Source: Desulforamulus hydrothermalis Lam5 = DSM 18033
GTDB taxonomy: Bacteria > Bacillota > Desulfotomaculia > Desulfotomaculales > Desulfotomaculaceae
DNA: 64,000 nt
Direction of reading: 5' to 3'
Assembly: GCF_000315365.1 (NCBI RefSeq)
Contig: NZ_CAOS01000001.1
Span: forward strand, 1,456 to 65,455
A program made the position numbers and the translations under genes. Shown piece after piece: positions 2,327 through 17,004 of this stretch. Within the stretch, counting starts at the first letter, position 1; each line of letters opens with the position of its first letter. A model generated the notes under the pieces. That model had not been told where the DNA came from. It searched no databases and saw only the letters and a program-made list of their open reading frames with translations.

Positions 2327-2339
2327 ACGTAACCAGGGA

Positions 2340-2363
2340 GGGAGGCGGCTGCCTCCCTTTTTT
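2340..2363 (+). terminator. Rho-independent terminator after DUF2922 gene
   Basis: Perfect 7-bp stem GGGAGGC/GCCTCCC with a GGCT loop and six T. It sits inside the putative operon, so it may act as an attenuator. Confidence 0.8.
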
Positions 2364-2389
2364 GGGCCTATATCGAAGGAGGAAAAGCA

Positions 2390-2575: not shown

Positions 2576-2586
2576 GGGGTGTAACA

Positions 2587-2973
2587 ATGGAGCAGGCGAA
2601 GAAAGCTAAACCAGAGCAGCGTATCACGCCCCACTTTACAGAAGGTGAGCTTGCCTGTCGGTGCTGTGGTAGATTGCTTGTTCAATCCGAGTTAGTCCAT
2701 AAACTAGAAACCCTTCGCCAGCTAGTGAAAAAACCAGTGCTGGTGAATAGCGGCTACCGCTGCCCCGCTCACAATAGAGCTGTGGGTGGGGCAGTGAATT
2801 CCTATCACCTAAAGGGCATGGCCGCAGATATTCATGTGCCGGGGTTGGCTGTGGTAGAATTAAGCCGCCTAGCGGAGCAGGCGGGCTTTAATGGCATTGG
2901 TACCTACCCAAAGCAGAGTTTTCTTCATGTGGACGTTAGGGGGAACCGGGCCAGGTGGCAGGAATCATTTTAA
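2587..2973 (+). CDS. M15 family D-Ala-D-Ala carboxypeptidase-like protein
   Basis: A 128-residue peptidase of the M15A/Peptidase_M15_3 type. Zinc and catalytic residues are visible in SYHLKGMAADIHV (SxHxxGxAxD) and in HVDVRG near the C-terminus. A CRCCG cluster near residue 20 is typical of the family. No signal peptide, so export would need another route, such as the YvrJ protein just upstream (11 bases away) or lysis. It would cut peptidoglycan stem peptides. It could be the relic of a phage lysis module. Confidence 0.85.
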   Translation: MEQAKKAKPEQRITPHFTEGELACRCCGRLLVQSELVHKLETLRQLVKKPVLVNSGYRCPAHNRAVGGAVNSYHLKGMAADIHVPGLAVVELSRLAEQAGFNGIGTYPKQSFLHVDVRGNRARWQESF

Positions 2974-3074
2974 GCCAATACAAAATTCAAGATATTATAA
3001 ACCACGGGCCTCCTTATTGGGGGCCCCTTTGGTCTTTGAACGTGGTCAATGACATAAATCACAGCCATAGGAAT

Positions 3075-3129
3075 TATCACAAAAATGTTAACTACCTGTG
3101 ACATTCCTGTGATGTTGGTTCGTTAAGAT
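3075..3129 (+). promoter_or_regulatory. Triple 11-bp-repeat promoter A
   Basis: TATCACAAAAA, then TGTTAACTACC, TGTGACATTCC and TGTGATGTTGG in exact 11-bp steps, then TAAGAT (3124-3129) as -10, sixteen bases after the start of the third repeat. The same layout precedes four other genes. Direct repeats of 11 bp overlapping the -35 region are typical of OmpR/PhoB-type activators. Confidence 0.8.
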
Positions 3130-3164
3130 AAGCTCAAAGCAACAGGAAAGGGGGGAAACAAAAA

Positions 3165-3452
3165 ATGAAGTTAGCGAAAAAGAGTTTTGCGGTGCTGGCA
3201 GTTCTGGGGTTATTGGCGGTGGCTCTACCCTTAAATAGCGCCCTGGCTGCCCAAAATACTGTAGCAAAGCCAGCTGTGCAGCAATCCGTTCCGGTACAAC
3301 AGGGCTACTACAACTATTCCGGTTACTGGTGCCCCTGGTTTAACCACAATCCCAACTATCAGACAAACTATGATTGGTACCAAAATAACAGCAATAACTA
3401 CAACCCCAATTACAATAATAATGGTTGGCGGATGGGAGGATGGTGCTGGTAA
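3165..3452 (+). CDS. Small secreted Tyr/Asn/Trp-rich protein
   Basis: A 95-residue protein. Residues 1-29 form a clear signal peptide (KLAKK, hydrophobic core, SALAA cleavage site). The mature part is rich in Asn, Tyr and Trp, with YWCPWFNHNPNYQTNYDWYQ in the middle and GGWCW at the end. I recognise no family. It resembles the proteins at 3500, 4684 and 7787 in signal peptide, aromatic tail and promoter type. Expected outside the membrane; the two Cys could bind metal or form a disulfide. AGGAAAGGGG ribosome site upstream. Confidence 0.8.
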   Translation: MKLAKKSFAVLAVLGLLAVALPLNSALAAQNTVAKPAVQQSVPVQQGYYNYSGYWCPWFNHNPNYQTNYDWYQNNSNNYNPNYNNNGWRMGGWCW

Positions 3453-3499
3453 GGTGCCTACCTACAACAAAAAATGTTTGCAGAGAGAGGATGTTACAT

Positions 3500-4177
3500 T
3501 TGAAATTACCGAAAAAGCGTTGGTTTATGAGCTTCCTGGTACTTATTATGGCCGTAGGCCTAGTGGGGGCCGCCTATGCAGCTCCGGCTCAATCCTGGGT
3601 GGAGATGATGAAAAATGATCCCAATCCCATGAATATGAACACCAATACCAATACAACCCAGAGCAGCAAGCAAACTACCAGCACAGCGGCTAAGACTACC
3701 CAAGCAGCCGCCGTACAGGTAGCTCAGGTTTCCACAAACAACAGCCAGACTACTACTCAGAATAACAGCAATACCCAAAAAGTTCCCACCACCCAGAATG
3801 ATCTATATAACCAAATGTACCAGCTTTGCCTACAGACTGGTATGCCCAACTGCCCCATGTTAAACGGTAGCCAGATGACCCGTGAGCAAATGATTAAATA
3901 TTGCCTGGGTATGTATAACCAATACAGGCAACAGCAGCCAAACAGCCAAATTAGCCAACAAAACTGGCAGGCTATGCAGCAAATGTGCCAGCAATGGTAT
4001 AGTAAGTACTACCCTCAAAACCAAAAGAGCGCTGCAAACGCCGCTAGCACCCAGAGCACACAACAGTACAACAATAACTGGAACAACAATATGAACCAAA
4101 ACTGGTCCAATCATATGCAAAACAATGGCCAGTGGTCCCAGAGAGGCCATAACAACTGGGGGAACTGCGGCTGGTAA
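3500..4177 (+). CDS. Secreted Gln/Asn-rich protein
   Basis: The best start is TTG at 3500: it has AGAGAGG about eight bases upstream and gives an N-terminus (MKLPKKRWFMSF) like that of the preceding gene (MKLAKKSF), followed by a hydrophobic core and AAYAAP cleavage site. The mature part (~200 residues) is dominated by Gln, Asn and Thr, with a middle segment containing spaced Cys/Met (QLCLQTGMPNCPMLNG) and a tail ending NWGNCGW. Low-complexity, prion-like composition. Cotranscribed with the 3165 gene, 47 bases away. Function unknown; a secreted metal- or surface-binding polymer is one possibility. An ATG at 3491 is an alternative start. Confidence 0.75.
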   Translation: MKLPKKRWFMSFLVLIMAVGLVGAAYAAPAQSWVEMMKNDPNPMNMNTNTNTTQSSKQTTSTAAKTTQAAAVQVAQVSTNNSQTTTQNNSNTQKVPTTQNDLYNQMYQLCLQTGMPNCPMLNGSQMTREQMIKYCLGMYNQYRQQQPNSQISQQNWQAMQQMCQQWYSKYYPQNQKSAANAASTQSTQQYNNNWNNNMNQNWSNHMQNNGQWSQRGHNNWGNCGW

Positions 4178-4196
4178 GTAAATATGAACACACGAC

Positions 4197-4235
4197 GGGT
4201 TGTCCCTGCAGGGGGCAGCCTGTTTTGTTTATGTG
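4197..4235 (+). terminator. Terminator after the 3165-4177 operon
   Basis: Imperfect GC hairpin (GGTTGTCCC ... GGGGGCAGCC with a TGCA loop) followed by TGTTTTGTTT. Confidence 0.55.
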
Positions 4236-4261
4236 GTAAGGAACTAAATTGAAATAAGAAA

Positions 4262-4281
4262 AAGCCGGTGTGAACCGGCTT
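4262..4281 (-). terminator. Terminator of the minus-strand 62-aa gene
   Basis: AAGCCGGT/ACCGGCTT perfect stem with GTGA loop; on the minus strand it is followed by a run of T, twelve bases beyond that gene's stop codon. Confidence 0.7.
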
Positions 4282-4293
4282 GGGTGCGGGAGG

Positions 4294-4482
4294 CTAGCTG
4301 GGTATTTGGCGATCAGGCTTACCAAAGTGGCAGGCCTTTAGGTGCTTCATTTCGTGGGTCAATTGGTGCAGTTTCTTTCGGTAATTGGTTACCTTTGGAT
4401 GCTCCGGGCCAAATTCATGTACCAGAGCGGCCAGTGTCATCTGGGACTGTATTTTTTTCAAATTCATTTGTGCATGGGTCAT
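4294..4482 (-). CDS. Small helical hypothetical protein (62 aa)
   Basis: Minus-strand gene with a good AAGGAGG site eight bases before the ATG and its own terminator. Predicted two helices, His- and Lys-rich (FGPEHPKVTNYRKKLHQLTH), no signal peptide. Its length and two-helix layout recall Spo0E-like phosphatases, but the SxxxD signature is missing, so I do not assign it. A divergent copy of the triple-repeat promoter points at it, which would place it in the regulon of the secreted proteins. Confidence 0.65.
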   Translation of the reverse strand: MTHAQMNLKKIQSQMTLAALVHEFGPEHPKVTNYRKKLHQLTHEMKHLKACHFGKPDRQIPS

Positions 4483-4530
4483 GAAAGTATAACCTCCTTC
4501 GTGTTGTAGGGTTCAAAATATCATAGGTAT

Positions 4531-4586
4531 AGAATAGCGAAGGTTTTTCTCAGCAGTGTTACAACTGTGTAAACTTTTTGTGATTT
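4531..4586 (-). promoter_or_regulatory. Triple 11-bp-repeat promoter B' (minus strand)
   Basis: On the minus strand: ATCACAAAAA, GTTTACACAGT, TGTAACACTGC, then TGAGAAAAACC, with TATTCT (4536-4531) sixteen bases after the third repeat begins. Same geometry as promoter A, though the third repeat is degenerate. It drives the 62-aa gene and is back to back with promoter B. Confidence 0.65.
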
Positions 4587-4592
4587 AGCGAA

Positions 4593-4647
4593 TATCACAA
4601 AAATGTTAAAAACCTGTAACAGAGCTGTGACATTACTTGGATAAAAT
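4593..4647 (+). promoter_or_regulatory. Triple 11-bp-repeat promoter B
   Basis: TATCACAAAAA followed by TGTTAAAAACC, TGTAACAGAGC and TGTGACATTAC in 11-bp steps; -10 TAAAAT at 4642-4647, sixteen bases after the third repeat begins (4626). Drives the 4684 gene. Confidence 0.8.
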
Positions 4648-4683
4648 GAATGCAAATACTAAAAAGAAGGAGTGAGTTCCAAC

Positions 4684-4989
4684 ATGAATTGGACCAAGAA
4701 GGTATTGGGTTTGCTGGGGGTTTTAGCACTACTGACGGTGGCTCTGCCCCTTTCCAATGTCTTTGCCGAACCGGTGGTTACTAACGACCAGGCCGTGGTA
4801 CAAACCGCTGCAACCACCCAACAGTCTGCGCCCAACACCCAACAGCCAACAACCCAGCCCAATGCCCCATCAACCCAACCACAAATCACACAACCCCAGG
4901 CACCCCAGGGCTACTACTACTCTTGCTGCCCCTGGTATGGCTCTGGCAACTGGAACAGTCCCTCTAACTACAGAGGTTCATCCTGGTAG
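4684..4989 (+). CDS. Small secreted Pro/Gln/Thr-rich protein
   Basis: A 101-residue protein with a signal peptide (NWTKKVLGLLGVLALL... NVFAEP), a linker of Gln/Pro/Thr repeats, and an aromatic Cys-containing tail (GYYYSCCPWYGSGNWN) like YWCPW in the 3165 protein. ATG 4684 is chosen over GTG 4672 because AAGGAG at 4667-4672 would overlap the latter. Own promoter (B) and terminator (4999-5027). Member of the local secreted family; function unknown. The CCPW motif suggests metal binding or disulfide linkage at the surface. Confidence 0.8.
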   Translation: MNWTKKVLGLLGVLALLTVALPLSNVFAEPVVTNDQAVVQTAATTQQSAPNTQQPTTQPNAPSTQPQITQPQAPQGYYYSCCPWYGSGNWNSPSNYRGSSW

Positions 4990-4998
4990 GTTTTTTAG

Positions 4999-5027
4999 GA
5001 ATAGGCCCATTGGGTCTATTCTTTTTT
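4999..5027 (+). terminator. Terminator after the 4684 gene
   Basis: GAATAGGCCC/GGGTCTATTC stem (one G-U pair) followed by six T. It separates the secreted protein from the two-component operon. Confidence 0.8.
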
Positions 5028-5123
5028 CGCAAAAAAATACCAGGGAGGGTATAATAAGTTTGGTTTTCTTATCAACCCGCTAAAGAAAACGGACGCAGTA
5101 AGGACACGAAAGAGGTGGTTAGG

Positions 5124-5807
5124 GTGAAGAATATTTTAATTGCTGACGATGATGAGCGCATTCGGGAACTGGTGAAACTTTACTTGGAGGCCGAAGGGTT
5201 TGCGGTGGTGGAAGCCGAGGATGGCCAACAGGTGTTAGACATAGTGAAAAAGCAGCCCATCGACCTGGTGCTGTTGGACTTGATGATGCCTGTACTGGAC
5301 GGATGGATGGTCTGCAAAATGCTAAGACGGGAAAGAAAAATCCCCATCGTAATGCTTACGGCCAAAGGGGAGGAAAATGACCGGGTGCTGGGGCTTGACC
5401 TGGGGGCGGACGATTATATTACCAAGCCCTTTAGTACCAGGGAATTGGTGGCCAGGGTGAAGGCGGTGCTGCGGCGGGCCGAAGGGGGCAAGGGGGAGGC
5501 ACACATGATCTCCTACCCTGGCTTTAAGCTAAACCAATTGACCAGGGAGTTGGAGCTAGGGGGCAACAACGTTAATCTCACCACCAAAGAGTTTGAACTC
5601 TTGCTCACCCTGGCCAAAAACCCCGGCAGGATTTACAATCGAGATCAACTCTTGGAGCTGGTCTGGGGTTACGACTACTGCGGTGATTCCCGGACGGTGG
5701 ACACCCATATCAACCGGCTGCGGACTAAGCTGGAGAGTGAGGCTGGGCACAGCGTATTTATTAAAACCATACGGGGAGTTGGTTACAAATTCGAAAATGG
5801 TCATTAA
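5124..5807 (+). CDS. OmpR/PhoB-type response regulator
   Basis: About 227 residues. Receiver domain with the acidic pair DDD near residue 7, phospho-acceptor Asp in LVLLDLMMP, Thr in MLTAKG and Lys in DYITKPF. A winged-helix domain follows (NLTTKEFELLLTLAKNPG ... GVGYKF). GTG 5124 gives the usual N-terminus KNILIADDD with AGAGGTGG five bases upstream; GTG 5115 is possible. The kinase gene overlaps or abuts its stop. OmpR-type regulators bind 11-bp direct repeats, exactly the pattern found before the neighbouring genes, so it is the best candidate for their activator. The TATAAT at about 5051 may be its own promoter. Confidence 0.9.
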   Translation: MKNILIADDDERIRELVKLYLEAEGFAVVEAEDGQQVLDIVKKQPIDLVLLDLMMPVLDGWMVCKMLRRERKIPIVMLTAKGEENDRVLGLDLGADDYITKPFSTRELVARVKAVLRRAEGGKGEAHMISYPGFKLNQLTRELELGGNNVNLTTKEFELLLTLAKNPGRIYNRDQLLELVWGYDYCGDSRTVDTHINRLRTKLESEAGHSVFIKTIRGVGYKFENGH

Positions 5808-5833
5808 AAAGAAGTCTGGTCACCAAGCTATGG

Positions 5834-7249
5834 TTGGCCATTGTACTGCTGGTGCTGGCTGTCTTCGCCTTTTCCGTGGCCATTCAGGCCCACCAAATTA
5901 AATCCTTCTTTTATGACCAGCAGGCCCGCTTCTACATCTATGAAGCGGAGGAAGTGGCCACCTTTTTCCGAAAAGAAGAACGTCCCGAGGTTATTCAAGA
6001 ACGGCTGCAGATTTTGAGCCAGTTTCTGGGTGCCAGCATTTCTATTATGGATAAACAGGGAAAGATGGTGTATGACCAACCGGCCAGTGGTCAGCAAGCC
6101 ACGGATATTGGGGTGGACCCTGGTTTGTTAGAAAAGGTATTGTCGGGCCGCAACACAGTTTTTGCCGGTAAATTATCCGGTAGTGAGCAGGATATTTTCT
6201 TGGCTTCAGTGCCGCTCCGCAAGGATAATCAAGTGATTGGTGCGGTGGTTATCAATAGCCCCCTAGCCACCATTCGAGAACAAATCAACCGTATGTTGAG
6301 CTTTGCTGTGCTGGGGGCATTGTTGGGCATTGTGTTGTCTACGGTATTAAGCATGGTGATCTTTCTTCGTTTTATTAAACCTTTGGTGGAAATGGACAAG
6401 GCGGCCAAAGCCATTGCCGAAGGGGATTTTGGTAAACAACTTCAGGTCAACTCCGATGACGAAGTGGGGCGGCTGGCCCTTTCTTTAAACCGTATGTCTG
6501 CCCAATTAAAGGAAAAGATTGAGGCCATTGAACGGTTGGACCGTTTGAGACAGGAACTGGTCTCCGATGTTTCCCACGAGCTTCGTACCCCACTAACGGT
6601 GATTCAGGGCTTTGCCGAGGCCCTGCATGACGAGATGGTGAAATCCCCCACCCAAGAGAAGTTCTACCTGAGAAATATCATTGATGAATCCGGCAGGCTG
6701 AAGGATTTGGTCAATGATATTTTAAGACTAAAGTCAATGGAAGCAGGCCATGTGGAGGATATGGAATATGTGGTGTTAAACAAGCTGCTGAACATCACTG
6801 CTGAACGCATGAGGCAAATTGCCACCGCCAAAGAGGTAACCATTCTCACCAAACTGCCGGGGGAACCCATTACGGTCTTTGGCAATATCGACCGGTTAAA
6901 ACAGGTACTCACCAACTTATTGGATAATGCCATCAGCCATACTCCTTCTAGGGGAAAGGTTATGGTGGAATTGGGTGTGCAGGATAAATGGGCCTTTTTT
7001 GCGGTAAAAGACAGCGGACCCGGCATACCCCCGGAGGAATTGGAGAATATTTGGGAGCGGTTTTATAAGCTGGATAAGTCCCGCTCCCGGCGGGGTGCTG
7101 GGTGTGGCCTGGGGTTGGCCATCGTGAAAAAAATTGTGGAAGTACACAGCGGCAAGGTTACTGTGGCCAGCGAGGTGGGCAAGGGAGCGGTATTTACGGT
7201 TTTTTTGCCTCTGAATCAGCCACCAGAGGAAGGGGCAGATAGCCCGTAG
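5834..7249 (+). CDS. Sensor histidine kinase, partner of the 5124 regulator
   Basis: About 470 residues: N-terminal membrane helix, extracytoplasmic region of ~130 residues, second helix (AVLGALLGIVLSTVLSMVIF), HAMP, HisKA with VSHELRTPLTVIQGF, then the ATP-binding domain (NLLDNAISHT, DSGPGIP, GLGLAIV). The in-frame start is doubtful: TTG 5834 lacks a ribosome site and cuts into the first helix. If one A were removed from the run at 5806-5810, an ATG at 5797 overlapping the regulator's stop would give MVIKRSLVTKLWLAIV, a normal N-terminus. The signal is unknown; metal or envelope stress fits the neighbours. Confidence 0.9.
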   Translation: MAIVLLVLAVFAFSVAIQAHQIKSFFYDQQARFYIYEAEEVATFFRKEERPEVIQERLQILSQFLGASISIMDKQGKMVYDQPASGQQATDIGVDPGLLEKVLSGRNTVFAGKLSGSEQDIFLASVPLRKDNQVIGAVVINSPLATIREQINRMLSFAVLGALLGIVLSTVLSMVIFLRFIKPLVEMDKAAKAIAEGDFGKQLQVNSDDEVGRLALSLNRMSAQLKEKIEAIERLDRLRQELVSDVSHELRTPLTVIQGFAEALHDEMVKSPTQEKFYLRNIIDESGRLKDLVNDILRLKSMEAGHVEDMEYVVLNKLLNITAERMRQIATAKEVTILTKLPGEPITVFGNIDRLKQVLTNLLDNAISHTPSRGKVMVELGVQDKWAFFAVKDSGPGIPPEELENIWERFYKLDKSRSRRGAGCGLGLAIVKKIVEVHSGKVTVASEVGKGAVFTVFLPLNQPPEEGADSP

Positions 7250-7357
7250 GGAAATTTGGATGTTGTTGTAATATGATGGTGTTCCGGGAAAAACTAGGGG
7301 TTAAGCGGAATCTGAAACATCGGACAGAGAAAGGTAAAGAAGGAGGAGATCAATATT

Positions 7358-7468
7358 ATGGGCTGGGGTTGGGGCTATGGCATGATGGGAGGCTGGTTTG
7401 GTATGTTGCTGCCGTTACTTTTTATGGCATTGGAGGGTGAGGGTTTTTTCGTAAACTTGCAAGGTTAG
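7358..7468 (+). CDS. 36-residue Gly/Trp/Met-rich small protein
   Basis: Starts MGWGWGYGMMGGWFGMLLPL and ends in LEGEGFFVNLQG. An AAGGAGGAG site lies about eight bases before the ATG, which makes translation likely. It has a short hydrophobic middle and could be a membrane-edge peptide; many small Gly/Trp/Met membrane proteins near metal transporters look like this. It lies 108 bases after the kinase gene and may be cotranscribed with it. Function unknown. Confidence 0.5.
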   Translation: MGWGWGYGMMGGWFGMLLPLLFMALEGEGFFVNLQG

Positions 7469-7564
7469 TTCCTTTTTTCTAAATAACACGGGCTGGCCTC
7501 CTTAAGTGATAGTTACCGGGCAAATCTCTTGGTAATCTGCCCTTGCTATTTAGGTTAGCTTAGG

Positions 7565-7606
7565 AAGTTATCCTCACTGTTACAACATCCCAACTTTTTT
7601 GTGACA
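7565..7606 (-). promoter_or_regulatory. Divergent copy of the triple-repeat motif (C1')
   Basis: On the minus strand: TGTCACAAAAA, AGTTGGGATGT, TGTAACAGTGA, GGATAACTTCC, with the usual spacing but degenerate repeats. It points toward the kinase and the small Gly/Trp gene, in antisense. No minus-strand gene is seen there, so it may simply be a binding site. Confidence 0.45.
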
Positions 7607-7619
7607 TAAACCCGCTCTA

Positions 7620-7664
7620 TATCACAAAAAAGTTAAGTTCCTGTGACAGAGTGGTGATAAAAAA
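7620..7664 (+). promoter_or_regulatory. Triple 11-bp-repeat site C1
   Basis: TATCACAAAAA, AGTTAAGTTCC, TGTGACAGAGT, GGTGATAAAAA in 11-bp steps. The expected -10 position holds TACTGA, which is weak. It lies 80 bases upstream of C2 and may be an extra regulator-binding site for the 7787 operon. Confidence 0.65.
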
Positions 7665-7699
7665 ATGCTACTGACTGTTCGGTTCTGGAGGGAACGGCA

Positions 7700-7754
7700 G
7701 GTCACAAAAATGTTAAATGGCTGTGATAATGCTGTGATGTTGGGGCGTTAGAAT
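7700..7754 (+). promoter_or_regulatory. Triple 11-bp-repeat promoter C2
   Basis: GGTCACAAAAA, TGTTAAATGGC, TGTGATAATGC, TGTGATGTTGG (third repeat at 7733), then TAGAAT at 7749-7754, sixteen bases later. Drives the 7787 secreted protein and probably the ATPase behind it. Confidence 0.8.
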
Positions 7755-7786
7755 AGATTATGCAATGAATAGAAAGGTGGGAGAGT

Positions 7787-8266
7787 ATGTCTAAAAAACA
7801 TATCTTAATTTTTATGGCTTTGCTATTTTTGGCGGCCCAGCCCATTTCTAATGTGTTGGCAAATTTCTATTCCTACGAGAAAACCACCGCTGCCAAAATG
7901 CCAGAGCCTGATTATACAGTAACCCAGACTGGGGAGCAACCAGCTACCAAAGCAGGTTTGGTGACAGAAAAAATAACTAGCCAGCCAGCCCCAACCAGCC
8001 AGCAGCAAAAGGAAGCAAACCCGTCCCAGGGGGCTACTTCACCTAAAACCGTGGCTCCCGTTGCCCCTGCCCAGGTGAGTCAGCCAGCAGCCAAGCCTCC
8101 CCAGGTGCAGCATCACATGGAGTGGCAGATGGACCAGGCAGCCAGTGGGCATGGTGGTTCCTATTATTCGGGATATCGACAAATGGGTTCACCATACAAG
8201 ACAGATTATGAGTGGTATCAATATCACCGAGAATCCGAGGAGATGGGCAATAGACAGTACCCCTAA
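7787..8266 (+). CDS. Secreted Pro/Gln-rich protein with aromatic C-terminus
   Basis: A 159-residue protein with a signal peptide (KKHILIFMALLFLAAQP... NVLAN), a long Pro/Gln/Thr/Ala linker (about residues 40-110), then a tail with His, Met and aromatics (HHMEWQMDQ, GGSYYSGYRQMG, DYEWYQYHRE). The YxWYQ element recurs in the 3165 protein (DYEWYQ and YDWYQ). No Cys in the tail, unlike the others; His/Met may be the ligands. Promoter C2 in front, P-type ATPase 75 bases behind, so a metal-related envelope role is a reasonable guess. Confidence 0.8.
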   Translation: MSKKHILIFMALLFLAAQPISNVLANFYSYEKTTAAKMPEPDYTVTQTGEQPATKAGLVTEKITSQPAPTSQQQKEANPSQGATSPKTVAPVAPAQVSQPAAKPPQVQHHMEWQMDQAASGHGGSYYSGYRQMGSPYKTDYEWYQYHRESEEMGNRQYP

Positions 8267-8341
8267 TGGGCTAGCCCAATTTAGCCACATAACAACACTG
8301 TCCTATGTTCATAATAAATCCAAGAATGGAGGGAATATCCT

Positions 8342-10699
8342 GTGGCCACAGCCAAAAAGGAATTGGTCCTAGAACGATTAAATTGTGCTTCCTGTGCAGC
8401 AAAGATAGAAGATCAGATCAGTAAAATTGATGGAGTTAGCCAGGTCAGCCTAAATTTTGCCACCAAAAAGCTTACATTGGAAACCGAGCGGCTGGAAGAA
8501 TTGGAACGAATACTGGCAGAAATTCGGCAAATCGTTAAGCGGTTAGAGCCGGATGTACTGGTTACGGAAAAGAAGGTGGACTTTACCCACCGGAAAGCGT
8601 TTCTGTTGGTGGGGTTAAGCTGTGCCAACTGTGCTGCCAAAATTGAAACCCAGGTGCAAAAAATCCCTGGTATTCAGGGGGCGGTGGTGAATTTTCCGGC
8701 CAAGAAACTGGTGGTGGAACTGGCATCGGAAGGCAGTAATGCCGAGATTCTACGCCATATTAAGCATAAGGTTGATAGTATCGAACCGGGCGTAGAGGTG
8801 AAGGAAATTACCGCCGAGACAAAGGCCCCCTCACCCCAGGAGGAAAAGCTGGGCGAAAAAATGGAACTGCTGCGGCTGGCGGCCAGTGCGGTGCTTTTTG
8901 CGGTGGCCCTGATTTTCCAATTTTCCTTTACTACCGAGGCCATCCTGTATGCCATCAGCTATGTGCTGGTGGGCGGTGAAGTGCTGTTAAAGAGTGCCCG
9001 CAACATCAGCCGGGGGCAGGTCTTTGATGAAAACTTTCTGATGAGTGTGGCCACCCTGGGGGCCTTTGCTATCCGAGAGTTTCCCGAAGCGGTGGCCGTG
9101 ATGCTCTTTTACCAGGTGGGAGAATTATTCCAGGATATGGCGGTCAACCGCTCCCGCAAATCCATTGCAGCTCTGATGGATATTCGGCCCGATTACGCCA
9201 ATGTCAAGGAAGATGGCAATATTCGGCAGGTTAGCCCCGAAGAAGTGGCGGTGGGGGATATCATTGTGGTTAAACCCGGTGAAAAGGTGCCCCTGGATGG
9301 CAAGGTTATCGAAGGCCAGTCCCTGGTGGACACCTCGGCCATGACCGGCGAGTCGGTGCCCCGAGAGGTGGTACCCGGAGCCGAGGTATTGTCGGGCTTT
9401 ATAAATAAGAGTGGTCTGCTTACCGTAGAGGTTACCAAAGAATTTGGCCAATCCACCGTGGCGAAAATACTAGACCTGGTGGAAAATGCAGCTGGCCAAA
9501 AGGCCCCGACGGAGAACTTCATCACCAAGTTTGCCCGTTACTACACCCCGGTGGTGGTCTTTGGGGCCCTAGCCGTGGCACTACTCCCACCCCTTTTGAT
9601 TCCCGGTGCCACCTTTAGTGAATGGCTGTACCGGGCACTGGTGATATTGGTTATCTCCTGCCCCTGTGCCCTGGTGGTTTCCATTCCCCTGGGCTTTTTC
9701 GGGGGTATTGGCGGGGCTTCCCGTAACGGAGTACTGGTCAAGGGCGGTAACTATCTGGAGGCATTAAACAACGTAAAAATTGCGGTGTTTGATAAGACCG
9801 GTACCCTAACTAAAGGGGTCTTTAAGGTGACTTCGGTGGTACCCAGAGAGGGGTTGACCAGGGAAGCCTTGCTGGAGTACGCAGCCTATGCAGAAATTCA
9901 CTCCAACCACCCCATTGCCCGCTCCATTCAGGAGGCCCATCAGGGGAAGGTTGATGAGCAGAAAATAGAAACCTACGAAGAGATTTCCGGCCACGGGATT
10001 AAGGTGCGGGTGGCTGGCCAAGAAATATTAGCCGGTAATGTCAAACTAATGGATAAGGAAGGTATTGAACACGGCAAGGAAAAGGTACTGGGTACAGTGG
10101 TGCACCTGGCGGTGGATGGACAATATGCCGGGCACATCGTCATTTCCGATGAAGTGAAAGAGGATTCCGCCGGGGCCATGCGGCAGTTGAAGGAACTGGG
10201 TGTAGAAAAGCTGGTCATGCTCACCGGCGATAGCCGGGAGGTTGGTCAAGCGGTAGGAAACTCCCTGGGCTTGGATGAAGTCCATGCGGAGCTGCTGCCC
10301 CATCAAAAGGTGGAGCAGGTGGAACGCCTGAGCCGGGAGAAGGGCCCAAAAGATAAACTGCTTTTTGTGGGAGACGGCATCAATGATGCACCGGTGCTGG
10401 CCAGGGCAGACATTGGTGTGGCGATGGGGGGCTTGGGTTCGGACGCTGCCATCGAAGCCGCCGATGTGGTGTTGATGACGGACGAACCCACCAAGTTGGC
10501 AGCTGCCATTAAAGTGGCCCAACGAACCCGCAGCATTGTCTGGCAGAACATCATCATGGCTATGCTAGTGAAGGGCATCTTCATCGCCCTGGGTGCCGGT
10601 GGCGTGGCCACCATGTGGGAGGCAGTTTTTGCCGATGTGGGCGTAGCTTTGGTGGCTATTCTTAACGCCATGCGGGTAATGCGGTATCAAGCGACATAA
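8342..10699 (+). CDS. P1B-type heavy-metal ATPase (Zn/Cd/Pb type)
   Basis: 785 residues. Two N-terminal HMA-like domains with NCASC and SCANC metal sites, membrane helices, TGESVP actuator loop, CPC in the channel helix (ISCPCALVVSIP), DKTGTLTKG phosphorylation site, GDGINDAPVLA hinge. The last helices carry the Lys (AMLVKGIF) and Asp (FADVGVAL) that mark the Zn/Cd/Pb-exporting subgroup (ZntA/CadA). It exports divalent soft metals at the cost of ATP. GTG start with GGAGGG upstream; no promoter of its own, so it depends on C1/C2 and the triple-repeat regulator. Confidence 0.93.
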   Translation: MATAKKELVLERLNCASCAAKIEDQISKIDGVSQVSLNFATKKLTLETERLEELERILAEIRQIVKRLEPDVLVTEKKVDFTHRKAFLLVGLSCANCAAKIETQVQKIPGIQGAVVNFPAKKLVVELASEGSNAEILRHIKHKVDSIEPGVEVKEITAETKAPSPQEEKLGEKMELLRLAASAVLFAVALIFQFSFTTEAILYAISYVLVGGEVLLKSARNISRGQVFDENFLMSVATLGAFAIREFPEAVAVMLFYQVGELFQDMAVNRSRKSIAALMDIRPDYANVKEDGNIRQVSPEEVAVGDIIVVKPGEKVPLDGKVIEGQSLVDTSAMTGESVPREVVPGAEVLSGFINKSGLLTVEVTKEFGQSTVAKILDLVENAAGQKAPTENFITKFARYYTPVVVFGALAVALLPPLLIPGATFSEWLYRALVILVISCPCALVVSIPLGFFGGIGGASRNGVLVKGGNYLEALNNVKIAVFDKTGTLTKGVFKVTSVVPREGLTREALLEYAAYAEIHSNHPIARSIQEAHQGKVDEQKIETYEEISGHGIKVRVAGQEILAGNVKLMDKEGIEHGKEKVLGTVVHLAVDGQYAGHIVISDEVKEDSAGAMRQLKELGVEKLVMLTGDSREVGQAVGNSLGLDEVHAELLPHQKVEQVERLSREKGPKDKLLFVGDGINDAPVLARADIGVAMGGLGSDAAIEAADVVLMTDEPTKLAAAIKVAQRTRSIVWQNIIMAMLVKGIFIALGAGGVATMWEAVFADVGVALVAILNAMRVMRYQAT

Positions 10700-10701
10700 G
10701 A

Positions 10702-10732
10702 AACTTCCCGGCTAATCACCGGGAAATTTTTT
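10702..10732 (+). terminator. Terminator after the metal ATPase
   Basis: TTCCCGG/CCGGGAA stem with a CTAATCA-type loop and six T. Confidence 0.9.
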
Positions 10733-10822
10733 GTGCATAGCCTAGTTGCTTTAAATTGAGAAGAATAGGCAGTCTGTTGTAGAAATTACTTAAAGATTTG
10801 GCGAGCGGGGAGGACTTAACAC

Positions 10823-11155
10823 ATGAATATAGAGCTAACACCGGAGGCCCGTCAGTATATCTTGGAAAAGATCGGCGGTAAGGTTACCCTTCAATGTATG
10901 GTGGAAGGGGGCTGACGCTGCAGTACCCACGGGGGAGCTATCAATAGCCACACTCCCACCGTGCGTGGGGGGGCACCTTCAGCTCAGCAGCAAACCTTTC
11001 AGTCCCAGGAAGTCCAGGGTATCACCGTTTATATAGATCCACAAATACGCCTGGCAGAACCAGACCAACCGCTGGTGCTTCATTATGCCGGTTGGTGGAT
11101 TTTTCGTTCCCTGGAGTTGTCCAATGCCGTCTGTGCTTGGCCTGGGGAGGAATAG
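10823..11155 (+). CDS. HesB-like selenoprotein (CC/Se motif), in-frame UGA
   Basis: A 110-residue frame starting MNIELTPEARQYILEKIGGK with GGGGAGG nine bases upstream. Codon 31 (10913-10915) is TGA; the frame continues open on both sides and reads GGU-RCSTHGG, matching the GG(C/U)xC site of the HesB/IscA-like CC/Se family. After the UGA comes a hairpin suitable for a bacterial SECIS. The C-terminal half is ordinary protein (GITVYIDPQIRLAEPDQPLV) and ends just before a terminator. Sec and Cys side by side suggest redox or metal/cluster chemistry. Automatic annotation would cut it into a 30-residue stub and a 3' frame from 10961. Confidence 0.8.
10926..10969 (+). promoter_or_regulatory. Candidate bacterial SECIS hairpin
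   Basis: Begins 11 bases after the UGA. Outer stem CCCACG/CGTGGG (10926-10931/10964-10969), middle stem GGGAG/CTCCC (10933-10937/10953-10957), apical GCTA/TAGC. The apical loop lies about 26 bases after the UGA, within the usual distance for SelB-bound SECIS elements. The loop lacks the usual GU at its tip if the inner stem forms, which is a weak point. Confidence 0.6.
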
Positions 11156-11160
11156 AGGTC

Positions 11161-11214
11161 AATGAAAAAGCAACCTGTGTAGCACTGGGAAGTGGCACAG
11201 GTTGCTTTTTCATT
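11161..11214. terminator. Bidirectional terminator
   Basis: A 19-bp perfect inverted repeat (11161-11179/11196-11214) with A and T tracts at its ends, between the converging selenoprotein and chemotaxis-receptor genes. Confidence 0.9.
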
Positions 11215-11218
11215 TTTG

Positions 11219-12793
11219 TTATATTTTAAAACCATTGGCAGCGGCCTTTAAGGCATCGGCCAGTTTGGTTAATTCTTCGGTGGCGGAGGAAACCTCCTGC
11301 AGGGCCGCTGTTTGTTCTTCGGTGGTGGCAGCCACATTTTGTACGCCAGCGGAAATCTGCTGCACGGCGGCGGATAGTTGCTGCACCTGGCCCGACAAGC
11401 CTCCGATGGTATGCAGTAGTGAGCTAAAGCGACCGCTCGCTTCATGAATGACTTCGGCACCGTTTTTGATATTGGCAGTACCTGTGTCCATTGAAGCCAC
11501 AGCCGTTCCGGAGTCGGTGTGGATTTGCTCAATGTGTGTACGAATTTCTCCGGCGGCAGCGGCCGACTGCTCTGCCAGTTTGCGTACTTCCTCCGCCACC
11601 ACGGCAAAGCCTCTGCCCTGGTCTCCGGCTCGGGCGGATTCGATGGCGGCGTTTAAAGCCAGCATATTGGTCTGGTCGGCGATGTGGGTAATTAACTCTA
11701 CAATCTGATTGACTTGGCTTAGTTCTTGCACCAGTTTTTGCAACATTTGGGAGGCGTGTTGGCCAGAAGTAGCAATGACCTCAATTTGTTGGGTGATCCC
11801 CGCCATACCTTGCTGGACTGCCTCGGCGGTGCTGGCTGTCTCCTGGGCCACTGTCGCCACCTGGTGGGTGTTGTGGGCAATCTGATCTGCGAAAGCAGAA
11901 ATTTCAGAAATGGTGGCAGAATTGCGGCTGGCGGCGGTAGCGGTGTGCTGGGTTTGCTGGGATAAACCAGCCGCAGCGGTGGTTAGGCTGTCCGCCGTAT
12001 GGATCAGGTGCCCCGCTAAGGCCCGGAGATTTGCTCGCATTTGGTTAAAGGAACGGGCCAGTGTGCTTAGTTCATCCCGGTTTTTCACCGGTAAGTCTCT
12101 GCCGCTTAAATCACCAGAGGCGATCTTGGCCGCTTCCTGGGCCATTTGTTGCAAAGGATGGGCAATCAGCCTTCCCATGAACAGGGCCAGCAGGACACCG
12201 GCCAGCAGGGTGACGAGGGTTAGCAGAATTACAAAGCGATTTACGCTATCCACTTTCTGCTGGACACTGCGTTGGGCCTCTTGGGCTTCCTTATCCTCAA
12301 ACTTGACCAATTGTTCCACCGCCCGGTGGAAATTATCGGCTACCTGCTGGTTGCTGTGGATATACATCCGAGCTTCTTCTAACTTACCGGACTGAACCAG
12401 GGAAACAATCTCCTCTGAGTATTGATCATAAGCTGCCATCGATTGCTCAATTTGCGTGGCCAGTTGCCGTGTCTGGTCATGCAGGGCTAATTTTTTAACT
12501 TCTTTAATCGAACGGTCGGTTTGACCATCCAGGGCTGTGAATTTTTCCAGATGCTCTTGGTTGCCAAAAATCACATAGGTTTTGAGAGCGGCTTCGGTAA
12601 CTGCAAAGGAAACCTGAACATTCTTTGCTTCTTCCGTTAACTGCAACTCCCTGTCAATAAAGTTCGTAAAGGTTTGCTCCACATTTTCTAGTTGCCTGTA
12701 GGAAATGCCACTCACCAGTAGTAAAAGTAACAACACCACACCAAAGCCGGATAATAGTTTGAACCGAATTCCCAAGAGAATCCCTCCACTCAT
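11219..12793 (-). CDS. Methyl-accepting chemotaxis protein
   Basis: About 520 residues: membrane helix near the start, four-helix-bundle-type periplasmic domain (~160 residues), second helix ([19 protein letters not shown]), HAMP, then the long signalling coiled coil whose tip contains [19 protein letters not shown] and [15 protein letters not shown]. It would couple an extracellular signal to CheA/CheW. TTG at 12775 has GGAGGG six bases upstream and gives [12 protein letters not shown]; the ATG at 12793 encodes that ribosome site as residues, so TTG may be the real start. A triple-repeat promoter (D) precedes it, tying chemotaxis to the secreted-protein regulon. Confidence 0.92.
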
Positions 12794-12811
12794 AAAATAC
12801 CAATATTTTCT

Positions 12812-12867
12812 ATACTAGCACCCTAATTTCACAGCCATGTCACAGCAATGTAACATTTTTGTGATAT
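12812..12867 (-). promoter_or_regulatory. Triple 11-bp-repeat promoter D (minus strand)
   Basis: On the minus strand: TATCACAAAAA, TGTTACATTGC, TGTGACATGGC, TGTGAAATTAG (from 12833), then TAGTAT at 12817-12812, sixteen bases later. Identical geometry to promoters A, B and C2; drives the chemotaxis receptor. Confidence 0.8.
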
Positions 12868-12869
12868 TT

Positions 12870-13090
12870 CTAGCACTTTTAGAGATTGGGGTCGGCAGAT
12901 AGACACCGGCATTGGGCGCAGGATTTGTGCTAGAGAAATGGTAAATCCGACTCCGGTATTTATCGGTTTAAGGTTCTTGTGGAGGTTATTCTCTTGATCC
13001 TTCTGGGGTAGTAAACCTATAGGCTGCTTTACATAGCTTGCATATCTGTCATGAAAAACAACGGTGTAAAACAACAACGACATTGGCTTG
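12870..13090. other. Intergenic stretch with GC-repeat remnant
   Basis: No gene seen. GGTCGGCAGATAGACACCGG at about 12891 resembles GGTCGGCAGACACCGGCAG near 14740 on the other side of the CBASS-like pair, a trace of the GC-rich repeat family on both flanks. Confidence 0.4.
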
Positions 13091-13119
13091 TTGCCGTATA
13101 CTAAAAATTACTATATAAT
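13091..13119 (+). promoter_or_regulatory. Promoter of the CD-NTase operon
   Basis: TTGCCG (13091-13096), 17-base spacer, TATAAT (13114-13119); about 30 bases before the start codon. Confidence 0.6.
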
Positions 13120-13150
13120 TATTTACCAACTAGACAGGAGGTATTTTGCG

Positions 13151-14026
13151 ATGTCAATATCCGATAAGTTTAGTACACTAATTGATAACCTTAAGATTAC
13201 GAATGGGGACACCATTTCTAGCCGATATAAGGCCATTACGAAAAGACTGAACACTGATTTTTGGAATTCTTCCTCAGAGATAAGCCATAGCAGATATGTA
13301 GGCTCAGTGGGTAGGGGTACTGCTATTAGGGGTGTAAGTGACGTTGATATGGTCATGGAATTGCCAAGTGATGTTTACTGGCAACATGATGCCTATAAAA
13401 GTAATGGCCAATCGGCCCTTCTACAAGCTGTTAAGGAAAGCATAAAGAAAACCTATCCTAATACTCATAATGTTGGGGATGGACAAGTTGTGGTTGTGAG
13501 TTTCACTGACGGGATTAAATTTGAGGTTATACCAGTATTTTTAAATCGTGAAGGAACCTACACTTATCCAGATGCTAACAATGGCGGAGGTTGGAAAGTA
13601 ACCGACCCAGTAGCCGAAATTAATGCCATTAATGATGCAAACAACACCTACAATCAAAAAGTAAAGCACCTAGCCAAAATGGCCAGAGCATGGAAGGAAA
13701 AGTGCAATGTACCTGTTCCGGGCATATTGATTGATACCCTGGTTTTTAATTTTATGAAGAAATGGGAATACAATGATAAATCGTTTTTGTATTATGATTT
13801 TATGACCAGGGATTTCCTAAAGTATTTATCCGAACAAAACCCTAGCCAGGGTTACTGGCTAGCCCCTGGAAGTAACCGAAGAGTGTATGGAAAGGGTAAA
13901 TTTGAATCAAAGGCTAAAAGCAGTTACAACGATGCTCTTAGGGCCATAGAATATGAAAATGCCAAGAAAGAGTACTCAGCTAACCAAGAATGGAGGAAAA
14001 TATTCGGGAACTATTTTCCGAGTTAA
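13151..14026 (+). CDS. CD-NTase (SMODS-type cyclic oligonucleotide synthase), CBASS-like
   Basis: A 291-residue nucleotidyltransferase. The active site shows GSVGRGTAIRGVSDVDMVM (GS motif plus DxD) and a third acidic residue in FEVIPVF; a helical second domain follows (KHLAKMARAWKEK). This is the layout of DncV/OAS-like CD-NTases, which make cyclic di- or trinucleotides after phage infection. ATG 13151 has AGGAGG nine bases upstream. The next gene, a two-TM SLATT protein three bases away, would be the effector. No E1/E2/JAB or HORMA/TRIP13 genes, so a minimal (type I) system. Confidence 0.85.
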   Translation: MSISDKFSTLIDNLKITNGDTISSRYKAITKRLNTDFWNSSSEISHSRYVGSVGRGTAIRGVSDVDMVMELPSDVYWQHDAYKSNGQSALLQAVKESIKKTYPNTHNVGDGQVVVVSFTDGIKFEVIPVFLNREGTYTYPDANNGGGWKVTDPVAEINAINDANNTYNQKVKHLAKMARAWKEKCNVPVPGILIDTLVFNFMKKWEYNDKSFLYYDFMTRDFLKYLSEQNPSQGYWLAPGSNRRVYGKGKFESKAKSSYNDALRAIEYENAKKEYSANQEWRKIFGNYFPS

Positions 14027-14029
14027 AAC

Positions 14030-14631
14030 ATGGATAAATACAGTTTATTGAAAAGCCTGGCTGAGAAGGGGTATAACATTGGTTTTGGAGCCAGAAAGAC
14101 CTTTTTGTCCTATGGCATTTATAGCAAAATTCCTAGATTTTTAAGCCTGTGTACTGTCTTTGTGGGTGTCTACCAGATGACGACACGCTATAAAAACCTG
14201 AACCCCGGAACTCAGGAGATTGTTTCGGTTATTATTATCTGTATAGGTATTTTAGCCCTAATACTAGATGCCGGAAGTAAGGATAAAGAACATTACAATC
14301 AGGTTGGTAAACAATTGGCCAGTCTTTATAACGAACTCCAGACCATGTACAATACAGTAAAGAATATGGATGATCATGCAGACTTTTCTCCGTTCGAAAA
14401 AAGGATGAAGGAAATCGAAGCAGAGGTTCATCGTATCGCCATATCGACCAAGTGCCATTTACCCATATTTTTACCAACCTTTACTTTTTCTATGGTGGCA
14501 CCCAAATTGATTGGATTAATGAGCAGTTACACTTCACCATCAAGGATAAATTTCCATTTTTACACTACGAAGCAATCGTCCTATATGGGTTAGTTTTATG
14601 GTTTATCTATTTAAAGGTGTTTCATAACTAA
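14030..14631 (+). pseudogene. SLATT-domain two-TM effector, frameshifted
   Basis: Two membrane helices (FLSLCTVFVGVYQM and IVSVIIICIGILALIL), then a helical cytoplasmic part, the SLATT pattern known as partner of SMODS nucleotidyltransferases. The frame from ATG 14030 ends at 14593, but its last ~45 residues are unlike protein. From about 14458 another frame reads HFTHIFTNLYFFYGG, then IDWINEQLHFTIKDKFPF and ends at 14631; one extra T in the run at 14458-14460 would join them. Either a sequencing error or loss of function. It would form pores or otherwise damage the membrane on sensing the cyclic nucleotide. No ribosome site of its own: translational coupling. Confidence 0.75.
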
Positions 14632-14636
14632 ATGAA

Positions 14637-14699: not shown

Positions 14700-16680
14700 T
14701 TCAAGGAAATTTCTGGGGTTGGCATAAAGGTTCTTTTCTGGTCGGCAGACACCGGCAGCGGGATGTTGCGTTTGTGGTGGTCCACAGTGATACCTACCCC
14801 CGCTCCCGGTGACTGCCAGCTTATAGGTCCTGTGTATGTCATTCTCCTGGGTCTGTCCGGGTCCGGCCGCCAACAGGGCTGCTTTGTTTTGTATTGTCTG
14901 AAAGGAAGCTACAGCCCTGCTAGCCGCCTTAGCTTTGGGGTCTCGGCCTCCGCCCATTGGCTGCATTCCGTTCCGCTACCTTTCCCTCCGCCGGGCCAGC
15001 GGACTTGCTCTGGGGTAACCCTTTGGGGTCCAGCCCGCCAGCCCCGCTCCGTTCACTGCCGCTCCACTCCACTACGCCAAAGTGCTCCGGCTATCGGGGT
15101 ATTTCTCTTGGGTCCTAAGCCGCACACTGGTGGGAATTCCTTTGGGGTAAGTCTCTGGAGTTATCGAATTCCCACCAGAGTGCTCGCCGGGCTTTGGGGT
15201 CTCGGCCTCCGCCCATTGGCTGCATTCCGTTCCGCTACCTTTCCCTCCGCCGGGCCAGCGGACTTGCTCTGGGGTAACCCTTTGGGGTCCAGCCCGCCAG
15301 CCCCGCTCCGTTCACTGCCGCTCCACTCCACTACGCCAAAGTGCTCCGGCTATCGGGGTATTTCTCTTGGGTCCTAAGCCGCACACTGGTGGGAATTCCT
15401 TTGGGGTAAGTCTCTGGAGTTATCGAATTCCCACCAGAGTGCTCGCCGGGCTTTGGGGTCTCGGCCTCCGCCCATTGGCTGCATTCCGTTCCGCTACCTT
15501 TCCCTCCGCCGGGCCAGCGGACTTGCTCTGGGGTAACCCTTTGGGGTCCAGCCCGCCAGCCCCGCTCCGTTCACTGCCGCTCCACTCCACTACGCCAAAG
15601 TGCTCCGGCTATCGGGGTATTTCTCTTGGGTCCTAAGCCGCACACTGGTGGGAATTCCTTTGGGGTAAGTCTCTGGAGTTATCGAATTCCCACCAGAGTG
15701 CTCGCCGGGCTTTGGGGTCTCGGCCTCCGCCCATTGGCTGCATTCCGTTCCGCTACCTTTCCCTCCGCCGGGCCAGCGGACTTGCTCTGGGGTAACCCTT
15801 TGGGGTCCAGCCCGCCAGCCCCGCTCCGTTCACTGCCGCTCCACTCCACTACGCCAAAGTGCTCCGGCTATCGGGGTATTTCTCTTGGGTCCTAAGCCGC
15901 ACACTGGCGGGAATTCCTTTGGGGTAAGTCTCTGGAGTTATCGAATTCCCACCAGAGTGCTTGCCGTGCTTACGGGTCCCCCGGTCACCTGCGGCAGCGT
16001 GCCTTCTGCTTTTGGGTCAAAGCTTTGGGGTCAGGCACCCTGCCTTTCCCTGGGGTCAAGCCTTCGTGCCAGCCTCCGCTGGCCAGTCTTTCGGGTCGGC
16101 ACAAAGGCTTCCTGCTGCTGAAGCACCTAGCCGTTGCCCTTGCATAGAGCGGTGCTAATCCTCACGCTGGCCGCTGCCAGCAGTTTTTTACCCAGTTCAA
16201 AGGATAGTCCATCGCTGAAACTCCCTGCATAGGGCCGGCGGCTGCCGGCCATTAAGATGTCCCTCTTTGGGGTAATCCTCTGGGGTCGGGACATGGTGCA
16301 AGTCAACCCTTTGGGGTCTTTCATCGGAAAACCCACCCCCTATCCCCCTCCCGTTGGAGGGGGCATCGGTCATCTCCCGCTTTTTCCATGATACTCCGCC
16401 TTTGCCGCTGCTCCCCGCTCCATACCTTAGTGGTCACTGTGGCTTTTTCGGCTCCGATGGGTTTTGGCGGCGAGCAGGCCGCCAAAACCAAAGCTAGTGT
16501 AGTGCATGGTGCAGCGGCAATGCCGGGCCTATCAAGGGCCGCTCCAAAAATTTTTATTAACCAAATGAGAGCGGGCCTTTGGGGTCCGGTTAATAAAAAT
16601 TTTCTCCACTTTCCGGCTGACGCCTCACCCTTGACAGCCCCGGCACCGGCTCCGTCCTGTGCAAGAAAAACGGGAGGTTA
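14700..16680. repeat. GC-rich dispersed repeat tract, right copy
   Basis: No supported gene. Contains the 259-bp tandem array and many CTTTGGGGT/CTCTGGGGTC motifs. Several lie in loops of unrelated stems: 16257-16263/16288-16294 (ATGTCCC), 16059-16070/16098-16109 (AGCCTTCGTGCC), 16547-16562/16588-16603 (AT-rich, 16 bp perfect), and once per 259-bp unit (CTGGTGGGAATTC). Long open frames here repeat every 259 bases and have no ribosome sites. Confidence 0.8.
14933..15968. repeat. Four tandem copies of a 259-bp unit
   Basis: Units start at 14933, 15192, 15451 and 15710 and are almost identical; the fourth differs by T to C in CTGGTGGG and diverges near 15960. Each contains a 13-bp inverted repeat (CTGGTGGGAATTC/GAATTCCCACCAG) around CTTTGGGGTAAG, and the double motif CTCTGGGGTAACCCTTTGGG. 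259 is not a multiple of three, and the frame stays open across a unit only by chance. Confidence 0.9.
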
Positions 16681-16686
16681 TCAAGT

Positions 16687-17004
16687 ATGTTGAGAAAAGT
16701 GCTGTCCAAAGTAGAAGAAGGTCGTTTTTCCCGCGCCCTGGTGGGCCTGCAGCAAGGCTGGCAGTTTGAAGTCAGGCACCGGGTGTTTGTCCAGCGTGGG
16801 GTGGATGTGTCCGGCTACGTCAAATATGCAGGCAAGAAGTACGGCGTCACCATCCAGCCCACTGGCTGCTTTTGCAGCTGCGAGGATGCCCTGGTCAGAA
16901 GGGTGCTGTGCAAGCACATCGCCTTTGTGGCGATGGCCGAGCTGGCCTACTACGCCGCCGAGCGCAGTGCCCACCGCCAGCCGGAGGAGGTACGGCCCAC
17001 CTAG
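16687..17004 (+). CDS. SWIM zinc-finger protein
   Basis: A 105-residue protein with the SWIM signature CSCEDALVRRVLCKH (CxC...CxH) near residue 62-76, which binds one zinc and usually contacts DNA or protein. GGGAGG lies about ten bases before ATG 16687. No other domain, so it is a stand-alone SWIM protein, unusual since SWIM is normally attached to helicases or transposases. It sits at the edge of the GC-rich repeat tract, has the same high GC, and might interact with it; that is a guess. Confidence 0.75.
   Translation: MLRKVLSKVEEGRFSRALVGLQQGWQFEVRHRVFVQRGVDVSGYVKYAGKKYGVTIQPTGCFCSCEDALVRRVLCKHIAFVAMAELAYYAAERSAHRQPEEVRPT

Follow-up and report, generated by a model that had tools for sequence, protein, structure and literature searches.

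Several described systems resemble, each in part, the hairpin arrays considered here. The CxC...CxH finger is shared by the SWIM proteins (ZSWIM, MuDR-type and SWIM-SNF2), and RNA hairpins of the ANTAR and CsrA types have a conserved loop, which is short, on changing stems. Defence genes travel between bacteria in genomic islands. Among palindromic repeats, the REP/REPIN-RAYT systems offer the likeness of short imperfect intergenic palindromes around one dedicated gene, with occasional lone copies (PMC3116915, PMC3733652), and attC sites that of palindromes conserved in structure and variable in sequence, with fixed stem irregularities and a link to accessory gene gain (PMC2727003).

As a case study, we analysed a window of 64,000 nucleotides (the whole stretch of DNA under study) from Desulforamulus hydrothermalis Lam5, contig NZ_CAOS01000001.1, positions 1,456 to 65,455. 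The original prediction had been that unrelated inverted repeats in this window enclose the same loop motif, that a protein or an RNA reads the loop, as in recombination hotspots or structured RNAs, and that the family has no name; for the last point, no earlier description was found in the open-access PMC literature.

Two inverted arrays and a small SWIM gene

The right-hand array of the window (Table 1) has 21 motif sites, every one on the plus strand, and homologous arrays with 86-92% identity are held by genomes G004 and G006. The loops of its hairpins carry two CTTTNGGGTC copies, 13-14 nt apart, on stems that are unrelated to each other. A better preserved copy of the opening hairpin was recovered in locus L039 by the hairpin scan described below. 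Each 259-bp unit contains several CTTTGGGGT sites and one hairpin, whose CTGGTGGGAATTC arms are present in all four units (unit four with one arm change), and the number of units varies between species, G004 and G006 having fewer. Close to the gene, the outer stem of the leader domain encloses the AT-rich hairpin, the stem of which varies among relatives with its pairing kept; the same layout is found upstream of the SWIM gene in L130, L128, L141, L136 and L039.

All five hairpins first given as examples exist, within a base or two of where they had been placed; the one given as 840/877 is a genuine hairpin that belongs to the second, inverted copy of the array and is not a scattered site. Four of the five beat their shuffles when folded as DNA, namely the hairpin of the first 259-bp unit (z -6.7), the minus-strand hairpin of the left-hand array (z -5.4), the AT-rich hairpin (z -3.0) and the hairpin with AGCCTTCGTGCC arms at 16058-16110, which has one mismatch (z -2.6), but the shortest example, taken alone as 16250-16300, folds no better than shuffles (z -0.9). 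In G004 this short hairpin keeps its stem and has an altered loop.

Table 1. Features of the window discussed in the text (window coordinates)
Feature	Position	Strand	Remarks
Left-hand array, inverted relative to right-hand array	488..2174	-	cut at 487 by assembly junk
Module hairpin GCACCTTGCCGCAGACCGA	835..895	-	loop CTTTGGGGTAGCCTCCGAGGTCA
Rest of bracketed segment	2200..12900		sensor kinase, heavy-metal P-type ATPase, chemotaxis protein, others
SMODS nucleotidyltransferase	13088-14026	+	Pfam 1e-55
SLATT_6 effector	14030-14593	+	Pfam 3.4e-63
Right-hand hairpin array, noncoding	14716..16686	+	leads into SWIM gene
Opening hairpin, imperfect, GCAGACACCG...CGGTGACTGC	14744..14817	+	read from sequence
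Four 259-bp units in tandem	14932..15978	+	TRF, 99% match
Module hairpin, unit 1	15122..15183	+	loop CTTTGGGGTAAGTCTCTGGAGTTATC, A-A mismatch at CAC/GTG
Module hairpin, unit 2	15381..15442	+	
Module hairpin, unit 3	15640..15701	+	
Module hairpin, unit 4	15899..15960	+	
Module hairpin GGCAGCGTGCCT / AGGCACCCTGCC	15993..16044	+	loop TCTGCTTTTGGGTCAAAGCTTTGGGGTC
Module hairpin AAGCCTTCGTGCC / GGCACAAAGGCTT	16058..16110	+	loop ends CTTTCGGGTC
Hairpin ATGTCCC / GGGACAT	16257..16294	+	loop TCTTTGGGGTAATCCTCTGGGGTC
Leader domain	16532..16634	+	outer stem TCAAGGG (16532-16538) / CCCTTGA (16628-16634)
AT-rich hairpin, 16-bp arms	16547..16603	+	CTTTGGGGTCC adjoins 3' arm
SWIM zinc-finger gene, 105 aa (CxC...CxH)	16687..17004	+	RBS GGGAGG

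The left-hand array has 12 motif sites on the minus strand, from 817 to 2174, and is 85% identical to L062 and 99.7% identical to G003; at the place in G003 that matches window position 488, an AT-rich hairpin is found and then a SWIM gene. The first 487 bases of the window (contig C1 1456-1942), with three GGCCACGCGTCGACTAGT copies at window positions 20, 197 and 425, are assembly junk that starts at contig base 1 and consists of unrelated pieces joined by the primer-like GGCCACGCGTCGACTAGT. The genes called there are therefore unreliable and the left-hand array is cut artificially, and because the match stops at window 488 through an assembly artefact, this end is unusable as support for a breakpoint. 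Elsewhere, in L200 (~3100-3250; G003 ~2329.2 kb), an array remnant stops at the start of an apparent group II intron (GTGCGCC...), after which reverse-transcriptase-like and recombinase-like frames follow.

The product of the gene that follows the right-hand array matches Pfam SWIM above cut-off (1.9e-6), and C63, C65, C75 and H77 are invariant in an alignment of 26 family members. Its AlphaFold2 model (mean pLDDT 94.6) had no Foldseek match at E 0.001 or better; in VIA-align the top row was ZSWIM8, with Z 8.1 over 90 residues against 4.8 for the next row, a structural match of a predicted model that supports the SWIM fold and says nothing on function. The CxCx(n)CxH pattern, the Pfam match and the fold match to ZSWIM8 agree in placing it among SWIM proteins, and no NCBIfam model covers the 105-aa family. 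No catalytic domain was recognised in the protein and the unit encodes no nuclease or recombinase, so that any cutting or joining would be carried out by other host enzymes.

Using protein searches, we found the family in 26 of 113 genomes and 16 of 55 genera of the class, which are anaerobic bacteria, with a patchy distribution and often several copies. Outside the class a single carrier (L039/G200) was found among 398 genomes sampled from the phylum; over 12.3 kb its contig shares 97.7% identity with G004, and it is therefore likely to be mis-binned or recently transferred. A phage origin was also considered, and viral contigs gave two weak SWIM matches. A 768-aa frame in L154 (4907-7213, minus strand), without a Pfam match, overlaps a C-terminal SWIM fragment, as if fused or interrupted.

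Loop motif, strand and stems across the class

In the window, 19 copies of the motif CTTTGGGGT were counted where 0.87 would be expected, nearly all of them within 14.9-16.6 kb, and CTTTGGGGTC occurs 23 times genome-wide, 11 of them in the array locus, against 2 for the reversed pattern. Exact CTTTGGGGT sites of the genome that lie outside both arrays mostly look coding (contexts read by eye), and the motif is thus array-specific and local, not genome-wide.

Hairpins were collected with a scan that combined a Watson-Crick stem score of at least 8, a loop of 20-32 nt and a doubled half-site, at a score of at least 23, the threshold of 18 being too loose (185 hairpins against 154 in the control); at threshold 24, real sequence gave 86 and reversed DNA 5. 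The scan recovered 84 hairpins at distances of up to 2.6 kb from a SWIM gene, some of them identical copies, and all 84 lie on the strand of the gene. Another 8 module hairpins came from elsewhere (0.94 Mb), and two of these are themselves real arrays or copies. The bare motif C[TC][TCA][TAC]NGGGTC is distributed 205:1 by strand in the stretches around SWIM genes. SWIM genes of other genera have the same kind of hairpin nearby, with different stems. Removing duplicates and adding more loci left a class-wide set of 91 different hairpins, among which 52 inner 8-mers can be told apart. In 75 of these hairpins the starts of the half-sites are separated by 13 or 14 nt, and 65 stem mismatches share one position, beside the CAC/GTG step. 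The variable stems defeated alignment with MAFFT, and pairing was therefore counted by script, with no covariance model.

Starting from the loop, 75 of 258 double-motif modules are flanked by a stem of at least 7 bp, compared with 1.25% (maximum 3.1%) when the flanks are re-dealt and with 1 of 192 on reversed DNA. The prediction of a conserved loop on a changing stem is correct and statistically strong. The claim that the motif belongs to the loop holds in part: 103 of 205 copies lie between hairpins, so that the motif is array-wide on one strand and not strictly a loop motif, but it is also concentrated in loops (78 copies), a further 24 copies lying just 3' of an arm.

Could such arrays be repeats with no selected role, in which tandem duplication and template switching have spread palindromes and motifs? 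The tandem 259-bp units of varying copy number would fit, as would fast divergence: between L039 and G004 the array blocks are 91-92% identical, with indels, against 96-100% for most other blocks, and this fast evolution is seen in one pair of close relatives. However, genera that differ in their stems agree in loop, mismatch position, spacing and strand, and the SWIM gene is well conserved; we consider this explanation very unlikely.

One exact hairpin type is shared by 11 genomes, of which 10 are SWIM-positive, and G044 has a lone 76-bp hairpin copy, 100% identical, 24.5 kb from its array and in inverse orientation. This lone copy, and the clustering of the palindromes round one gene as REPs cluster round RAYT genes (PMC3116915), would be expected of REP-like miniature palindromes that a Y1/HUH transposase of the host mobilises in trans, with the SWIM protein as co-factor or passenger. 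Y1 transposases are indeed found in 13 of 13 SWIM-positive genomes tested, but genomes lacking a SWIM match carry them just as often (24 of 26), and the genes, lying elsewhere than in the clusters or arrays, do not track them. Moreover, the unpaired foot tag of REPs (GTAG or CGTC at one end of the palindrome) is missing, any GTAG, GGAG or CGTC string lying near either foot in just 13 of 103 hairpins, and the loop rather than the foot is conserved, the orientation uniform and dispersed copies few, which makes such an origin improbable.

Dispersed CTTTGGGGTC clusters in G004 were considered as the same element and rejected, since 209 kb yielded 2 module hairpins and the reversed control 1; they are intergenic repeats in tandem, spaced by sequences such as CTGTTGTTGGA or GCTATTCG. 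In the same genome, L066 4797-5998, L068 12994-13160 and L075-L077 carry tandem intergenic CTTATGGGTATTYCTTTGGGGTC repeats with spacers like CTGTTGTTGGA or TTGGCTGTTGGC, a related motif and not a loop-type hairpin; some have inverted partners and some adjoin apparent rRNA genes. Identical CTTTGGGGTC contexts at L050 1519 and L057 586, flanked by TTCGAAGTTCGATGTTCGAAGTTCG simple repeats and in one case near a contig end, are a separate repeat family. A further kind of hairpin, which lacks the motif (GGCGCACATCGGAGCGGGGC / GCCCCGCTCCGAAGTGCGCC, loop like ATAAACAGCGGAAAATCTACC), was seen in L128 (reverse strand 2200-2300) and also in L150, L151 and L117, that is in several genera and with a similar stem mismatch.

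A leader RNA or a DNA element

The main rival to a role in DNA is a large structured RNA or mRNA leader, in which the array would be co-transcribed with the SWIM gene and the SWIM (or another) protein would bind the CUUUNGGGUC loops, autoregulating the gene or building an RNP. For this speak the motif strand, which is always that of the gene, the leader domain kept across genera just upstream of the RBS, and the structure matched by the SWIM model, which is ZSWIM8 in an AGO2-miRNA complex and a weak guide to function. RNA stems under selection are expected to accept G-U much more readily than A-C on the strand that is transcribed. Outside the conserved position, however, the stem mismatches of the 91 hairpins comprise 6 G-T and 6 A-C contexts (small numbers); G-U is not favoured over A-C, and RNA-specific selection is therefore unsupported. 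The sense strand outfolds the antisense strand in only 14 of 28 stretches, and no Rfam family reached its gathering score in the window or in four related loci (best sub-threshold E 0.12). Arrays also run on downstream of the SWIM gene, occur without the gene nearby and are found as lone hairpins, and no sigma-70-like promoter was detected in 14500-17300, which is weak evidence. RNA folding of the motif sites was uninformative, their unpaired probability (0.23) equalling the background (0.23).

Together, the absence of a G-U bias, the 14 of 28 folding result, the lack of an Rfam match, the arrays past the gene and the lone hairpins favour a DNA-level role, on small numbers, and we regard the leader RNA as rather unlikely; a role as RNA may still be left room by the constant strand and by the leader domain conserved before the start codon. 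Of the two options raised at the outset, the structured RNA has thus retained strand consistency in its favour and lost ground on mismatches, folding and Rfam, and a protein that reads the loop is plausible, the adjacent SWIM protein being the candidate suggested by gene neighbourhood.

Proposed island borders and comparison with known systems

Pairs of arrays within 60 kb of each other were found on 11 contigs (G000, G003, G004, G006, G025, G030, G033, G034, G044, G047 and G100). Opposite-strand pairs are 11:0 outward, with the minus-strand member on the left and the plus-strand member on the right, and no inward pair was seen; the 11 pairs fall in six genera, so that the effective number is smaller and six of six corresponds to ~0.03 two-sided. 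The left members of the pairs of G000, G003, G030 and G044 have no SWIM match, and both members of the G047 pair were called by the SWIM gene and not by motif hairpins. Same-strand neighbouring arrays also occur (G033, G006), and G027 and G031 have a single array with no partner within ~69 kb upstream. A link with the replication terminus was considered and rejected: no dif-like match was found in the genus, and the dif site of G031 lies 2.3 Mb from its SWIM locus.

In the window, the SMODS and SLATT_6 genes (13088..14593) form a CBASS-like cargo adjoining the right-hand array, for which no match was found at the corresponding place in G004. The cargo between the arrays of G025 is similar to the remaining bracketed segment of the window (2200..12900), and two-component systems, metal ATPases and chemoreceptors are included in the cargo of G025, G004 and the window. 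In other genomes the arrays enclose or adjoin an MspI-type system and GmrSD (G047), DUF1156/DUF499 with helicases (G034), type I restriction (G024), PglZ/BREX (G100) and type III restriction with DrmD-like helicases, DISARM-like (G030, G006); some islands hold ordinary genes, and no recombinase is common to the islands. Using PADLOC at 1e-15, we obtained 328 matches on the array side (126 proteins), 140 on the other side (101 proteins) and 32 in the control set (126 proteins), family counts that are redundant and form a contrast rather than a matched test, the control proteins coming from few of these genomes, away from SWIM genes, and the sets not being genome-matched. A Peptidase_M15 gene, in some cases with a peptidoglycan-binding domain, recurs in islands near arrays (7 of 126 array-side proteins; L149 3675-4241, L154 14361-14930, L150 10097-11026, L119 6772-7161 and L116 6924-7310).

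The window's genome and G003, two species whose other shared stretches are ~97% identical, agree at 99.75% over a 10.3-kb segment that extends into the array; this segment looks like a recent exchange and may reflect ordinary homologous recombination. The recombination hotspot of the original prediction gains indirect support from the borders of variable islands, the fast divergence of the arrays and the inverted pairs.

The location of the arrays between cargo and neighbouring genes would also suit insulators, that is bidirectional terminators or structural barriers isolating acquired islands, with the SWIM protein as a nucleoid-type protein, and in many arrays the hairpin that comes first is flanked by A-rich sequence on the 5' side and T-rich sequence on the 3' side. 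Yet intrinsic terminators do not usually have loops of 25 nt, the number of terminator-like sites in the window's array (6) does not stand out from shuffles (4.8), and the conserved loop and one-strand rule would stay unexplained; we judge insulation to be quite improbable.

The anatomy, the strand rule, the phylogenetic spread, the partner gene, the outward pairs and the defence and metal cargo are established, and of the anatomy and the association of the arrays with the SWIM gene we are highly confident. The reading that we put forward, the likeliest of those considered but tentative and one that may well prove wrong, is a lineage-specific DNA element in which the SWIM protein reads the motif and the fast-evolving arrays serve accessory islands as borders for recombination. 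The element would combine the small SWIM zinc-finger gene with the arrays on its flanks, in which each imperfect palindrome has a variable stem, usually one CAC/GTG mismatch and a loop with two CTTTNGGGTC half-sites. The SWIM protein would bind these half-sites on the strand in its folded form, as lagging-strand single-stranded DNA or a cruciform; the palindromic, repetitive arrays would be recombinogenic and so become borders where accessory genes are gained, lost or exchanged, and single hairpins could be copied to new places. The stronger version, a new genomic-island platform in which SWIM recognises the doubled CTTTNGGGTC in the loops of stem-variable hairpins and outward arrays delimit a segment for the capture of defence and metal genes, we regard as doubtful. 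The predictions of the DNA element are clear, as they name a protein, a 10-nt motif, a strand and a loop. Here a repeated, oriented DNA structure with a conserved small protein of its own is found at the edges of different islands, across many genera of a single class, and the hairpins offer a natural case of selection on a loop whose stem is free to change.

Compared with REP/REPIN, the conserved part here is the loop, in place of the GTAG/CGTC foot tag, on stems of ~8-22 bp with loops of ~25 nt in one orientation, and the partner is a 105-aa SWIM protein without the HUH/Y1 domain of RAYT (TnpA_REP). In attC sites the terminal structure is variable, whereas here the loop is conserved, and the unit contains no integrase gene; the attC core pair RYYYAAC / GTTRRRY (R''/R') was found in 0 of 103 hairpins, and no cassette gene lies between successive hairpins in the arrays read. 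Unlike ZSWIM, MuDR-type and SWIM-SNF2 proteins, the protein is stand-alone, at ~105 aa. The ~25-nt loop with its doubled 10-mer, on stems in which no RNA-type evolution was seen, sets the hairpins apart from those of the ANTAR and CsrA types. In the broadest sense the hairpin arrays are another bacterial palindromic repeat; they may work like REP/RAYT or attC and are a member of neither, and what looks new, against the open-access literature, is the combination of a loop-conserved doubled motif, a SWIM partner and outward pairs at island edges.
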